A DNA stretch of 10,196 nt from Candidatus Alcyoniella australis (GTDB taxonomy: Bacteria; Lernaellota; Lernaellaia; JAVCCG01; Alcyoniellaceae), in the NCBI GenBank assembly GCA_030765605.1, contig JAVCCG010000028.1, forward strand, positions 1-10,196. Reading direction: 5' to 3'. Positions 1,650 through 9,957 of this stretch are shown one piece after another; the stretch's first letter is position 1; each line of letters starts with the position of its first letter. The position numbers and the translations under genes are program-made. The notes beneath the pieces are model-generated. The model was given only the letters and a program-made list of their open reading frames with translations, had not been told where the DNA came from and did not search any database.

Positions 1650-2267
1650 CTAGAGCCTGCGGTGTACGGCCACCACGCGACCGGCAATGCGCAGCTCGGT
1701 GGCGGTGGTGATGCGGATCGGTTGGTAGTCGGGGTTGCTGGGCATCAGCAGCGGCCCGTCGCCATCCTCGAGCATGCGTTTGACCGTGGCCTCGCCGTCA
1801 ACCAGCGCCACCACGATGTCGCCTGGATGCACCTCGGCGCGGCTGTCCACGAACGCCAGGTCGTTGTCCATGATCCCGTCGCCGCTCATTGAATCGCCGC
1901 GCACGCGCAAACAGAACAGGCCGGGCTTGGGCGGAATCAGGCCCAGGGGATCGATCAGCTCCTCGAGCGACTCGTCCGAGAGCGCAGGCACTCCGGCGCG
2001 CACACGTCCCAGCAGCGGCACCAGACCCGGCTGACCCAGGGCCGCTCTGCCGCGGGGAGTGACGCGCCACGAGCGGCTGCGGCCCGGCGCGTTGTCGGCC
2101 AGGTCCAATCCTTTGAGCGCACGTAGCGCTTCGCTGATCGCGTTGACGCTGCGCAGGCCGAGCTGTTGTTGAAGCTGGCGCAGGGTCGGCGGCATGCCCA
2201 GCTCGGCGGTCAGCTCCCACAGCGCGTCGAGCACGCGGACACGGGCGTTGGTCAGCCGTTGGGCCAT
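1650..2267 (-). CDS. lexA: LexA SOS repressor
   Basis: A 205-residue LexA, the usual length. The N-terminal winged helix is at about 1-70. Its recognition helix reads RSVNAISEAL, keeping Ser40, Asn42, Ala43 and Glu46, which correspond to E. coli Ser39, Asn41, Ala42 and Glu45. The autocleavage site is Ala91-Gly92 (GRVRAGVP), and the catalytic dyad is Ser126 (GDSM) and Lys163 (ATVKRM). The protein represses SOS genes and cleaves itself when bound by RecA filaments. The start is supported by GAGAGGG (2274-2280) six bases upstream. It follows dinB by 65 bases, with no LexA box of its own seen in the gap. An ATGAG/CTCAT inverted repeat (2322-2336) spans the dinB stop. Expression therefore probably depends on the SOS promoter upstream of dinB, giving autoregulation through the operon. 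A LexA paralogue rather than the sole LexA is possible. Confidence 0.95.
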   Translation of the reverse strand: MAQRLTNARVRVLDALWELTAELGMPPTLRQLQQQLGLRSVNAISEALRALKGLDLADNAPGRSRSWRVTPRGRAALGQPGLVPLLGRVRAGVPALSDESLEELIDPLGLIPPKPGLFCLRVRGDSMSGDGIMDNDLAFVDSRAEVHPGDIVVALVDGEATVKRMLEDGDGPLLMPSNPDYQPIRITTATELRIAGRVVAVHRRL

Positions 2268-2332: not shown

Positions 2333-3573
2333 TCATTTGCGGGTTTTATCGCTAGTTAAGGCCGCGGTGCTGGCCGGTAAAACCGCGCCTTTGCCAAAGC
2401 GCTGCCAGATCTCGTCGCAGGCCGGGCCCAGCAGCTGCATCCGACGCTCGTCCGGGCCGGATCGCCCAACAGCTCGCCCTGGCCCACCGGCCGGTCGACC
2501 AGGCCGCGTACGGCGAATCCGATCAGCCGCAACGGACGATGGTCGCGCCAGGCTTGATCGAACATTTCGTGGGCCGCGTGCAGCAACGTGGCCGTTACCT
2601 GGGTCGCGCAGGGCAATGTCAGGCCGCGGGTGATGGTCGAAAAGTCGGCGTAGCGCAGCTTGAGCCCCACGCTCTTGGCGTACAGCCGTTGGGAGCGCAG
2701 GCGGTTGCCCACACGCGCCACAAGCCGGTCGAGGCAAGCCTCGAGCTGCGCGCGCTGGGCCAGATCGCTGGCGAAAGTCTGCTCGTGGCTGATCGAACGC
2801 CGCTCGTGCTCGGTGTGCACCGGCGTGGAATCAATGCCGCCGGCCATCTGTTTCAGCCGCGGACCGTGCACACCGAACGTGCTCAGCAGCCACTGCTCGG
2901 AGGTCTGGGCCAGTTGACCGATGGTCTCGATGTTGTGGCGCGCCAGTTGTTGTTGGGCTCGCGGCCCGACTCCCCACAGCCGTCCCACGGCCAAGGGTGC
3001 GAGGAATGCGCGAGACTCTCCGGGAGGCACCACCACCAGGCCGTCGGGCTTTTGCAGGTCGCTGGCGACCTTGGCCACTAGTCGGCTGTCGGCCAGACCC
3101 ACTGAGGCGGTCAGCTCCAGCTCGTGGGCCACCCGCAGCTTGACCTGCTGGGCCACACCCCGGGGCGGACCCCACAGCCGCGCCGTGCCCTCTAGGTCGA
3201 CGAACGCCTCGTCGCAACTCAGCGGCTCGACCAGCGGACTGTAGCTGCGCAAAATCTCGAACAGCAGATTGGACGCCGTGTTGTAGGCATCAAAGCGCGG
3301 ATCCACGCGCACCAGGTTGGGGCACAACAGCAAAGCGCGGGCCATGGACATCGCCGAATGCACGCCGAATTGCCGCGCCTCGTAACTAGCGGCCGCCACC
3401 ACGCCCCGGCCCTGGGCCGGACCGCCCACTGCCACCGGACGGCCGCGCAACGTCGGATCGTCGCGTTGCTCGATCGACGCGAAAAACGCGTCCATGTCCA
3501 CGTGCATAATCGCGCGTTGCCGGTTGCATAACTTTTGTGCAGTGGCCGCGCCCGATACAATTCGGTTGCCCAT
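2333..3573 (-). CDS. dinB: DNA polymerase IV (DinB), frameshifted near the 3' end
   Basis: A Y-family translesion polymerase. From the ATG at 3573, HVDMDAFF lies at 24-31 (catalytic Asp26, steric-gate Phe31) and SCDEAFVDL at 119-127 (Asp121, Glu122). Helix-hairpin-helix and little-finger regions follow. As sequenced, the frame runs to a stop at 2356, and its last ~33 residues (after GELLGDP) are not DinB-like. Adding one base at 2457-2458 restores GPDERRMQLLGPACDEIWQR and then FGKGAV, a normal DinB C-terminus, ending at 2333 (413 residues). GQGELLG before the break may be the clamp-binding motif. The in-frame GTG at 3582 coincides with the predicted transcription start and the ATG at 3505-3507 would cut the first beta strand, so 3573 is preferred, although it lacks a clear ribosome site. 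The indel may be a sequencing error in a GC palindrome or a real mutation. Confidence 0.9.
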
Positions 3574-3588
3574 GCTGCTCACAGGGGC

Positions 3589-3616
3589 ATTATACTGTAC
3601 ATTTGTACAGCTTCAA
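3589..3616 (-). promoter_or_regulatory. SOS promoter with LexA box for dinB-lexA operon
   Basis: On the minus strand, TTGAAG (-35, 3611-3616) and a consensus TATAAT (-10, 3589-3594) are separated by exactly 16 bases. Those 16 bases (3595-3610) are CTGTACAAATGTACAG, a CTG-N10-CAG box with perfect 6-bp arms. The full site reads on into ACAGTA as in the E. coli consensus. LexA bound here would block polymerase directly. The predicted start is near 3582, leaving almost no leader before the first possible dinB start codons. Confidence 0.88.
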
Positions 3617-3784
3617 GGCGAATATCGAATTTTTAACATCAAAAAACTGAGAGGCCGCCGTGAAAATTTGACCCATGAATTCGATGTTTTGCAGTTCTAG
3701 CCTATGTTATCGATGTGATTCATGCCCCTGCCCGCGGATAACAGGTTGAAATTACATGTCCTTGTTTTTCAATCTGTATCACCC

Positions 3785-3814
3785 TTGACACATGGCACAT
3801 GGCTTGCTTATAAT
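3785..3814 (+). promoter_or_regulatory. near-consensus sigma-70 promoter of a small RNA
   Basis: TTGACA (3785-3790) and TATAAT (3809-3814) are both perfect hexamers, with an 18-base spacer. The predicted start is around 3822. It is the strongest promoter match seen in the window and points at a short sequence that ends in an intrinsic terminator rather than at a gene. The 168 bases between the SOS promoter and this site contain nothing else I can support. Confidence 0.75.
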
Positions 3815-3821
3815 CCGTTTT

Positions 3822-3902
3822 GCAGGAAACGTGATAGCTTCACACCGTAGCTATTGACCTCCTTTTTGGATGCTGAGGTTGCCCCGCCTCAGCCCTTTTT
3901 TT
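3822..3902 (+). ncRNA. candidate small RNA with anti-Shine-Dalgarno linker
   Basis: An ~81-nt transcript is bounded by a consensus promoter and an intrinsic terminator, with no credible open frame. The 5' part has a hairpin with ATAGCT (3834-3839) and AGCTAT (3849-3854) around a 9-base loop. An apparently single-stranded linker follows with ACCTCCTTTTT (3857-3867), which includes the anti-Shine-Dalgarno core of 16S rRNA (CCUCC). Then comes the terminator hairpin. Such a C-rich or CCUCC linker is typical of trans-acting riboregulators that pair with ribosome-binding sites. I do not recognise a known RNA family. It might instead be a terminated leader of a lost gene. Confidence 0.6.
3872..3902 (+). 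terminator. intrinsic terminator of the small RNA
   Basis: GCTGAGG (3872-3878) pairs with CCTCAGC (3887-3893) around an 8-base loop, followed after CC by seven T residues (3896-3902). It works only in the plus direction; the minus strand lacks a T-run after the stem. Confidence 0.85.
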
Positions 3903-3958
3903 ATCCATTACACACGATTCCCAATCCCCCATTTAGGCCGCAGCAAAAAACGCGAGCA

Positions 3959-4033
3959 GACCAAGGTCGTAGCTCAATGGCCCTGGCTGCGTCGGATGAT
4001 GGAGGGTGGGTAATAATGTTGAATAACATTATT
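3959..4033. repeat. intergenic repeat copy A, conserved block plus AT palindrome
   Basis: The block GACCAAGGTCGTAGCTCA (3959-3976) is followed 35 bases later by a perfect palindrome. Its arms are AATAATGTT (4012-4020) and AACATTATT (4025-4033), with spacer GAAT. A second copy in the same orientation and almost the same spacing lies at 6539-6608. The palindrome ends 9 bases past the stop of the minus-strand gene at 4043, so in a transcript it would form a 9-bp hairpin in the 3' untranslated region. No T-run follows. Confidence 0.6.
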
Positions 4034-4042
4034 TGGTGAACA

Positions 4043-4780
4043 CTAACGGGGCAGGGCTCCGGTGATCCCTTTGTAGCGCGGGATTTTCGCCGCCTCAAAA
4101 CCAAGCTGCACCGCCTCGATCACCACGGCGATCTTGTCGCCGCCGGGCGAAATCGAGACGTAGACGATCTTGTACTGAATGAATTTGCGCCAGGCCGAGC
4201 GGTCGGCCTGCAGTACCTGCCAGGGGCCGGAGTTGCGGCGGATCGAGAGGCTGAACTTGGATTTGGCGTCCCAGGGGTTCTCCGCATTTTGCTCGACGCT
4301 CTGTTCGAGTTTGATCTCGTAGTGTTGGTCGCCCAGGCTGAAGCGCACCAGGTTCTCGCCGAACTGTTTGATCACCGAGTCGTAGCCCAGCCAGACCGCG
4401 ATCGGTTGGCGGTAAACCTCGTTGCCCTTTCGGCCGCGGATCCCCAAGGCTCCCAGTTGGGTGTGCGTGCGTTGGTCGAACCGCGCGGCGTCGTTGGCAG
4501 CGCGCTCCATGTCCGGGTAGTCCCGCTCGGTGAACTCGCCCTCGAGCTTCTTGACGAAATCGTTTTTCAGCGCGTCGATCACGTACACGTGGATCGACTC
4601 GCCGGCCAGCGCCCCGCCGGAATAGTCACCGCGCTCGCCGAACGCCCACAGTTTGTCGTCGTCGGACCAGCCGTAGATGACCAGCGTGTTGCCCGTGGGC
4701 ATCGGCTGAGCCGCTGCAACGGCCGCAAAGGTCAGGGCCGAGAGCAGGACCGCAATGATCGCCACGGTGCGCATCGTCAT
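4043..4780 (-). CDS. secreted DUF2259-like protein
   Basis: A 245-residue protein with an N-terminal signal peptide (hydrophobic 5-22, cleavage likely after AAA at 24). The mature part has WSDDDKLWAFGERG (38-51) and SIHVYVID (62-69). Its C-terminal region has WQVLQAD, SPGGDKIAVVI and GFEAAKIPRYKGITGALP. This layout recalls the predicted secreted family DUF2259, from memory of its pattern (FxxDGxYFAFEEYG, IYVID, terminal GFEGP...VTG). That assignment is an inference. The ATG shares its A with the TAA stop of the upstream protease gene (TAATG), with GGAG five bases before the start, so the two are translationally coupled. A longer frame begins at 4870 inside the upstream gene but would bury the signal peptide, so I rejected it. 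A second ATG at 4774 is also possible. Periplasmic or exported; no enzymatic motif seen. Confidence 0.75.
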   Translation of the reverse strand: MTMRTVAIIAVLLSALTFAAVAAAQPMPTGNTLVIYGWSDDDKLWAFGERGDYSGGALAGESIHVYVIDALKNDFVKKLEGEFTERDYPDMERAANDAARFDQRTHTQLGALGIRGRKGNEVYRQPIAVWLGYDSVIKQFGENLVRFSLGDQHYEIKLEQSVEQNAENPWDAKSKFSLSIRRNSGPWQVLQADRSAWRKFIQYKIVYVSISPGGDKIAVVIEAVQLGFEAAKIPRYKGITGALPR

Positions 4781-6426
4781 TACTGCTCCATCAGTCGCAG
4801 GATGGTGGCCTGCTGCCAGCGCCGCAGCTCGTTCAGCCGCTCGGGATGGAACGGCGGCGGATCGAGCCAAGCCGGCGAGATCGCGCTTGGCGCGGGACGA
4901 TACTTATCGTCGGCCAGGGCCGGCAGATCGGGGCCCGATTGCTCGGTGGGCCAGGTATCGAATTTAAAGCGCGAGTTGTAGACCAGCAGCACACCGCCGC
5001 TCACGTCGAACGGCGCTTCGAGGTCCACGTTGTCGCCCGAATCGATCCCGGCGTAGAGCATGTTGGGTCCCTGGGTTGTGGGGTAGTTGATCGGGCTGGT
5101 GCCCAGCTTAAAAAGCGCGCCGCTGAACGACTCGAGGGCCAGCGAGGTGGTGCCCGCATCGACTCGCGGAACGCTGTGGGCGGCGAAGCTGAGCATCTCG
5201 CCGAATCCGTAGCGCCCGCTGGAGGCCTGAACCCAATTGGCGATCAGGTTGCTCATCTGCACCGTGGCGAACGACTCGTCCAGGGTGTTGACCAGGAATT
5301 GCTGCACTTGGTCGGGGCCGCCGTTGCTCAGCGTGAACACGTCGCCGTAGGTCTGGACCCCGTCCAGGCGCGAGGCCACGTAGGTCCAGAACAGGTAGGC
5401 CTGGACGTAGTTGTCGTAGAGCCCCCAGGTCCAGTTGACCAGCGACAGGCCGTTGCCGATCAATCCGTTGGGATCGCTCAGGTAGTAGCTCAGGGCGCCG
5501 GAGTTGATTCCGTAGACCGCGTGTACAGCGCATTCGGCCAGGCCCTCGTCGTGATAGGCCCAGTACGGGTTGGTCTGACCATGCTCCTCGTTGTACAGCA
5601 AGTGCTGGAACTCGTGGGGCACCACCTGCTCGTAATAGAACGAACCGTTGACCACGTTGATATAGACCATCTCCATCTCGTTGGAGTGAATGCCCCACCA
5701 ATCCATGGTCTGCTCGTTAGGGTAGGAGTTGATCGACGAGAAGTAGCCGCCGTAGTACGGCCCGCCGTCGAGCCCGAGGATCAGCACCTTGCCGTTGTCG
5801 TCGATGTCCCCCGGTTCGCAGAACAGCTCGGTTTCGGTCGGGTAGATGTGTTGGTCGAATTGCTCGACCGTGGTCTGGGCGTTGTCCACGACCATGCCCT
5901 GCTCAACGTAGACCACGCCGTAATCGCCCACTGCCGCGCGTTGGGCCGTAAGCTGGTACTCGTCGAAATCCGGGGTACTGAAGTCAACGGCCCAAAGCTG
6001 TGCGGTGTCCGCCGACCAGAAGTCGCCGCCAACGCCCTGCCCGGGGTCAGTGCCGCCTGCTTGCAGCGTATATTGCAGGCCCAGCTTCTGCTTGCCCGTG
6101 GTCAGTGTGGCCCGGGCCGTCTCCGCATCGTAGGTCACTGATTCGATTTCCAGCTCGTGGATCTCGGAGCTGATCTGATAGGTGCGCACATCACCGGCCA
6201 ACGCCGTGCTCGGATCGACGCTGAACACGATCACCACGCTGTACTCGTCCGGCGCGCTGAGCTGCTCAAGCTCAATACCGTCCCACGGACCCAGGTCGTC
6301 GTCATCGTCGTCATCGCCGCCCGATCCGCCGCCACCGTCGTCATCATCGCCACCGCCGCAACCCACGACCAGCGTCAGGGCGGCCAGGGCCAACAGCAGC
6401 GCCAAGATCCATCGATATCCGTTCAT
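4780..6426 (-). CDS. M30-like metalloprotease lipoprotein
   Basis: Residue numbers here count from the in-frame GTG at 6429; subtract 1 for the chosen ATG start at 6426. The protein begins with a lipoprotein signal ending in LVVGC (Cys24), followed by a Gly/Asp-rich linker (about 25-45) that would hold the catalytic part away from the membrane. The zinc site is HEFQH (272-276), with EGLAE (295-299) supplying a likely third ligand 19 residues later, the gluzincin pattern. Upstream GDIDDNGKVLILGLDG (207-222) and SNEMEMVY (249-256) resemble hyicolysin-type M30 peptidases. The C-terminal half is probably a beta-rich extension. AGGAA lies 7 bases before the ATG; the GTG is too close to it. The substrate is unknown. 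The gene leads a coupled pair with the DUF2259-like gene, perhaps its partner or substrate. A -10-like TACAAT at 6464-6469 (minus) lacks a good -35. Confidence 0.85.
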   Translation of the reverse strand: MNGYRWILALLLALAALTLVVGCGGGDDDDGGGGSGGDDDDDDDLGPWDGIELEQLSAPDEYSVVIVFSVDPSTALAGDVRTYQISSEIHELEIESVTYDAETARATLTTGKQKLGLQYTLQAGGTDPGQGVGGDFWSADTAQLWAVDFSTPDFDEYQLTAQRAAVGDYGVVYVEQGMVVDNAQTTVEQFDQHIYPTETELFCEPGDIDDNGKVLILGLDGGPYYGGYFSSINSYPNEQTMDWWGIHSNEMEMVYINVVNGSFYYEQVVPHEFQHLLYNEEHGQTNPYWAYHDEGLAECAVHAVYGINSGALSYYLSDPNGLIGNGLSLVNWTWGLYDNYVQAYLFWTYVASRLDGVQTYGDVFTLSNGGPDQVQQFLVNTLDESFATVQMSNLIANWVQASSGRYGFGEMLSFAAHSVPRVDAGTTSLALESFSGALFKLGTSPINYPTTQGPNMLYAGIDSGDNVDLEAPFDVSGGVLLVYNSRFKFDTWPTEQSGPDLPALADDKYRPAPSAISPAWLDPPPFHPERLNELRRWQQATILRLMEQ

Positions 6427-9596: not shown

Positions 9597-9902
9597 CTAA
9601 TCTTCAGCTTTATACCAAAGACCGGTCACCAGAGAATTCAAGTCCATAATCGCCGTGCACAGCTCCTGCCTAAGATCACTAGACATGGAATCGAGCCTTT
9701 GCTTATAACTACCCGTTTGGTCCTGGTCTATCATTCCAGAAATTTTATCAATGTTTTCTTGGACATCCCGAGGCAACTCATCACGGGGGAGCAAGGAGAT
9801 CTCATGCAGAGCATGGGTCAGACGCTCAACCGAATCATATGCCGAGGCTAGAGAACGCATTGCCCTCCCTGTTAACTCATAAGCACGAGAAATTTGATTC
9901 AT
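9597..9902 (-). CDS. helical 101-residue protein, first gene of nuclease-channel operon
   Basis: The ATG at 9900-9902 follows a perfect AGGAGGTG (9909-9916) at 8 bases; the GTG at 9911 is part of that ribosome site and was rejected. The product is soluble, charged and almost wholly alpha-helical by composition: QISRAYELTGRAMRSLASAY near the start, a Pro/Arg/Asp break around 42-49, then helix to the C-terminal LWYKAED. There is no signal, membrane segment or catalytic motif. The gene is more AT-rich than its downstream neighbours, suggesting separate origin. I recognise no family; a structural, adaptor or regulatory role is possible. Confidence 0.75.
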   Translation of the reverse strand: MNQISRAYELTGRAMRSLASAYDSVERLTHALHEISLLPRDELPRDVQENIDKISGMIDQDQTGSYKQRLDSMSSDLRQELCTAIMDLNSLVTGLWYKAED

Positions 9903-9908
9903 AATGTT

Positions 9909-9957
9909 CACCTCCTATTTAAAATAATTTATACACCTTGCTGAAAAATAAATGCAA
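9909..9957 (-). promoter_or_regulatory. promoter and strong ribosome site of the nuclease-channel operon
   Basis: On the minus strand, TTGCAT (9952-9957) and TATAAA (9928-9933) are spaced by 18 bases. The -10 is good and the -35 weak. AGGAGGTG (9909-9916) is a full anti-16S match. The surrounding 50 bases are very AT-rich, contrasting with the coding DNA on both sides. Confidence 0.5.

Follow-up and report, generated by a model that had tools for sequence, protein, structure and literature searches.

The segment at positions 3822-3902 of the window (the whole 10,196-nt stretch of contig JAVCCG010000028.1 of Candidatus Alcyoniella australis that was analysed) is very probably a real small RNA gene, and its sequence gives good support for an independent one: it is a short, non-coding, intergenic segment with its own promoter and its own terminator. 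This is the layout of free-standing trans-acting small RNAs (sRNAs), which are a kind and not a lineage. The function we prefer for it is that of a trans-acting sRNA that blocks Shine-Dalgarno (SD) sequences with a seed that it perhaps masks itself, a reading in which we place about even confidence; if the RNA is real, an anti-SD mode of action is somewhat favoured. The features are collected in Table 1.

Table 1. Features in and around the predicted small RNA gene (positions in the window).
Feature	Position	Strand	Remarks
lexA	1650-2267	-	dinB-lexA operon
dinB	2356-3582	-	dinB-lexA operon
dinB-lexA promoter	3616-3589	-	TTGAAG-16-TATAAT; overlapped by SOS box
SOS box CTGTACATTTGTACAG	3595-3610	-	perfect palindrome, CTGT-N8-ACAG; overlaps dinB-lexA promoter on its own side
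Imperfect dyad GATAACAGGTTGAAA ... TTTCAATCTGTATC	3737-3780	+	just 5' of sRNA -35; candidate operator, weak
Sigma-70 type promoter	3785-3814	+	TTGACA-18-TATAAT (hexamers 3785-3790 and 3809-3814, spacer 18), 12/12, as are only two others in 1.06 Mb
Predicted small RNA, ~81 nt	3822-3902	+	promoter-to-terminator unit; no credible ORF
AGGA predicted to mask the anti-SD stretch	3824-3827	+	partner in the minimum-energy fold: UCCU 3860-3863
5' hairpin	3833-3855	+	7 pairs (GAUAGCU / AGCUAUU), 9-nt loop; alone modestly better than shuffles, z -1.98
ACCUCCUUUUU, anti-SD stretch and U-run	3857-3867	+	candidate seed and Hfq site
Intrinsic terminator	3872-3902	+	8-pair stem (3872-3893), 6-nt loop, CC then U7
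DUF2259-like gene	4043-4795 (ORF 4043-4870)	-	just below curated cut-off

Much of the preliminary description of this locus holds up: the perfect -35/-10 pair, the terminator stem with its T7 run, the non-coding segment of about 81 nt between them and the AUAGCU/AGCUAU pairing of the 5' hairpin are all present. Placing the RNA start 7-8 nt past the -10 element, at about 3821-3823, gives the length of about 81 nt, and we infer a discrete transcript from 3822-3902. The only plus-strand ORF of at least 5 codons that starts and ends inside the RNA has 8 codons. No tRNA or tmRNA was found in the window, and Rfam 15 gave no family at gathering score over the RNA.

How unusual such a unit is can be judged from a scan of both strands of 1.06 Mb, about a quarter of this genome (62% GC). 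Besides the promoter of the RNA, two others match the consensus perfectly: one lies upstream of a gene whose product, judged by eye, reads as metK, and one upstream of a piece that, again by eye, resembles the 3' end of tmRNA. This last pair lies at locus L108 (4816-4909, minus strand; G000:C85), where the perfect sigma-70 promoter leads directly into the short piece, which ends GGGGGTTCGACTCCGACCGCCTCCACCA, like a tmRNA 3' end; an intact tmRNA gene lies separately at G000:C23:2877-3231, and the piece could be what is left of an integration site or else an unusual small RNA gene. When a strong unit had to have a promoter of 10/12 or better and then, within 45-250 nt, a hairpin of -11 kcal/mol or lower with five T, only two remained in the 1.06 Mb: a tRNA gene and the RNA at 3822-3902. 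Looser limits (9/12, four T) gave a list that, classified by eye, was mostly coding sequence and further tRNA genes. The promoter-terminator unit at 3785-3902 is thus far from chance in this genome and looks like a stable-RNA gene.

The RNA as a whole folds better than shuffled sequences (z -2.96, matched by 2/200), and nearly all of the excess comes from the terminator (3868-3902, -14.3 kcal/mol, z -3.56 when folded by itself); the 5' part on its own gives an unremarkable z -1.09. Between the two hairpins, ACCUCCUUU occupies 3857-3865 on the plus strand. The match to the anti-SD end of 16S rRNA that had been described there is exact: ACCTCCTTT at 3857 is identical to the canonical 16S 3' tail (ACCUCCUUU / ACCTCCTTT), the genome's own 16S breaking off at a contig edge. 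The 9-mer occurs just once on the plus strand of the window; the CCUCC pentamer itself is not rare there (9 occurrences).

The linker had also been described as unpaired, and this part is not confirmed: in the 81-nt fold most of it is predicted to be closed, with the 5' AGGA as partner of UCCU. Within the stretch 3857-3867 the predicted unpaired probability is 0.02-0.06 for UCC and above 0.95 for the U-run, and the only open part of the linker is the U-run at 3864-3867. CCUCC is fully open in 0.003-0.01 of the predicted ensemble at 15-50 C, and opening it is predicted to cost about 3-3.5 kcal/mol. Folding the 96-nt stretch 3815-3910 instead frees the linker, so its openness depends on the exact ends of the RNA. 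These predictions bear on an alternative in which the RNA is real and CCUCC is a structural clamp in cis, held by the 5' AGGA, with the RNA acting through its loop UCACACCGU, the U-run or protein binding. CCUCC is predicted to be closed at every temperature tried and the loop (3840-3848) to be mostly open, as a clamp would have it; the closing helix, however, has only 4 pairs, a target of 7-10 nt should still be able to pair because its duplex should repay the roughly 3.5 kcal/mol, and the longer fold does away with the clamp altogether. We consider a clamp possible but unlikely.

If the anti-SD stretch does act as a seed, its targets should lie at ribosome-binding sites. Among 863 crudely called starts (about a quarter of the genome, with matches counted up to 40 nt from the start), the linker region has at least 7 contiguous complementary nucleotides at 74 and at least 9 at 9. 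Complementarity of at least 10 nt occurs at 4/863, against a mean of 1.2 for linkers that keep CCTCC and have the rest shuffled, a level reached by 12/200 shuffles; start-region complementarity is thus weakly above these controls. The candidate site singled out earlier, AGGAGGTG at 9909-9916, does have 7-nt complementarity and lies, by way of correction, on the minus strand, where it is the SD of an ORF of about 100 aa with its ATG at 9902. It is an ordinary 7-nt match, and the accompanying caution that many SDs would match the linker was well placed. The strongest lead is a galU-like nucleotidyltransferase gene (L059 1495-2397, G000:C157), a candidate target by sequence and a lead only: its start region contains a 10-nt SD match to the linker (AAGGAGGUCA) and ranks second of the 863 by raw duplex energy, accessibility being ignored.

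The preferred reading, in which the RNA blocks SD sequences in trans, can be set out as a mechanism with several steps. First, a strong housekeeping-type promoter starts the RNA and its own terminator ends it, both read directly from the sequence. Second, Hfq would hold the U7 tail and the internal U-run, and the 5' hairpin would shield the RNA end. Hfq is encoded in all seven class genomes, in this one at G000:C107:77116-77286 (74.5 bits), and the RNA shares with Hfq-dependent sRNAs both a host that has Hfq and a U-rich 3' tail, here U7; binding through the U-rich tail would be expected. Third, the CCUCC stretch would pair with the SD sequences of a subset of mRNAs and so block ribosome entry. 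Because the seed is predicted to be closed by the AGGA near the 5' end of the RNA itself, it would have to be opened by Hfq, by trimming of the 5' end or by a target that offers additional pairing, and such masking would screen out the many ordinary SDs. That the RNA masks ribosome sites is plausible, given the anti-SD 9-mer, the Hfq gene and known sRNAs that act alike. A more specific version would make this an anti-SD sRNA that is peculiar to its lineage, acts broadly and has its seed masked in cis by the SD-like 5' AGGA, with 5' processing or Hfq switching it between a closed state and an open, translation-repressing one; we regard that as quite improbable.

Several known sRNAs work in this way. 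NfeR1 of Sinorhizobium meliloti, of the alpha-r14 or 'cuckoo' family, is short, has its own sigma-70 promoter and uses an anti-SD seed at ribosome sites; the alpha-r14 RNAs do not depend on Hfq and form three hairpins, every one of which carries CCUCCUCCC unpaired (PMC10746234). The RNA at 3822-3902 shares the short length, the promoter and the anti-SD stretch, whereas it has two hairpins and a single ACCUCC, in the linker and not in a loop, and gives no Rfam match to any such family; without three hairpins that each present CCUCCUCCC unpaired, it does not belong to the family. AbcR1/AbcR2 (alpha-r15) bind Hfq and block translation with CU-rich anti-SD motifs; they are 114-120 nt long, with three stem-loops and two unpaired motifs, and occur in tandem copies (PMC7143759). 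Here too an anti-SD motif goes with proposed Hfq binding and translation block, but the RNA is 81 nt long, single-copy and has two hairpins and one motif, which places it outside that family as well. In Staphylococcus aureus, RNAIII and RsaE direct UCCC-type seeds against SD sequences, and one seed of RsaE stays hidden in a stem until the 5' end has been processed (PMC9217828). The likeness is in the C-rich anti-SD seed, with RsaE as a precedent for a masked one; the seeds differ (UCCC(C)), as do the folds, and a sequence relation was not found. The best Rfam resemblance is to SorY of Rhodobacter sphaeroides (RF02651), with a hairpin, ACCUCC, UUGGA and a terminator in like order. Its 19.4 bits stand against a gathering score of 111 bits, and three other places in the genome score higher; the higher-scoring ones inspected resemble ordinary terminators at the ends of genes. 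Homology to SorY/SorX was rejected, the best Rfam matches (19.4 and 14.5 bits) being unspecific and far under the cut-off, and the likeness to SorY is at most one of architecture. The best reading is that the RNA works like NfeR1, AbcR or RsaE and belongs to none of these families: it is ordinary in kind and new as an individual.

The search for relatives covered the class and much beyond it. In the six same-class genomes, all of other families and the nearest compared, no match by sequence or by covariance rose above chance; the lexA neighbourhoods of the class and other loci from it contained no comparable unit, and pattern searches across the class (anti-SD then T-run; promoter then CCTCC) gave no relative, with counts near controls in the related genomes. 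A search of genome contigs with LexA found no near relative. A single-sequence covariance model run on 193 genomes, six of them from the class, found no relative of the RNA either: matches reach 28.8 bits, and the best, read individually, are terminators or coding sequence with another layout. The E-values of this model are too optimistic, as unrelated genomes give 27.8-28.8 bits on plain terminator and coding sequence. A possible paralog of 25.8 bits at G000:C157:37740-37812, antisense to the start of the galU-like gene and without promoter or terminator, is within chance by that measure and was dropped. DNA matches in two genomes (G007 and G012, E about 0.001) were rejected, having no such promoter-terminator layout around them, as were viral contigs sharing a 16-mer in an exact scan, with nothing shared around it; plasmids and phages held no relative. 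Because no conserved copy was found in any searched genome, selection on the stems and seed lacks support.

The missing homologs, together with the lack of a plus-strand gene downstream (the next gene is on the minus strand), are what one would expect of a remnant or by-product, that is, the promoter and terminator of a lost gene or an attenuator giving a short, non-functional RNA. Two points make this distinctly unlikely: promoter and terminator still match or nearly match consensus, although they should have decayed if nothing selected for them, and this genome has very few such promoter-terminator pairs. A perfect 9-bp A+T-rich inverted repeat (4012-4033, AATAATGTT-4-AACATTATT), with no T-run after it, lies in the gap that separates the RNA from the end of the DUF2259-like gene. 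A leader peptide or attenuator is highly improbable: AGGA-AAC-GTG does open the 8-codon ORF noted above (3831-3857, plus strand, VIASHRSY), which ends at the anti-SD stretch just before the terminator, but the start context is weak with an AGGA spacing of 3 nt, there is no run of a single codon as is typical of attenuators, and no plus-strand gene follows to be attenuated.

Control by the SOS response would place the RNA in the dinB-lexA regulon, and it has a very small chance of being right. The RNA is indeed divergent from that operon, as had been described, and the box at 3595-3610 has the CTGT-N8-ACAG form of the E. coli LexA site. That box, however, is on the dinB side, overlapping the dinB promoter (3589-3616) and some 170 bp away from that of the sRNA, and near 3785-3822 there is no further box; by sequence, SOS control of the RNA is unsupported. 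The pattern of the dyad at 3737-3780 is unique in the genome and was equalled by 16/200 shuffles, which is not significant.

The locus offers a clean case of a probable small RNA gene that lends itself to testing, in a lineage whose nearest compared genomes belong to other families. As a free-standing anti-SD sRNA, the preferred reading, it would extend sRNAs that block ribosome sites with anti-SD seeds beyond the groups in which they have been described. The idea is already known, and the gain would be one further example, perhaps with a self-masked seed.
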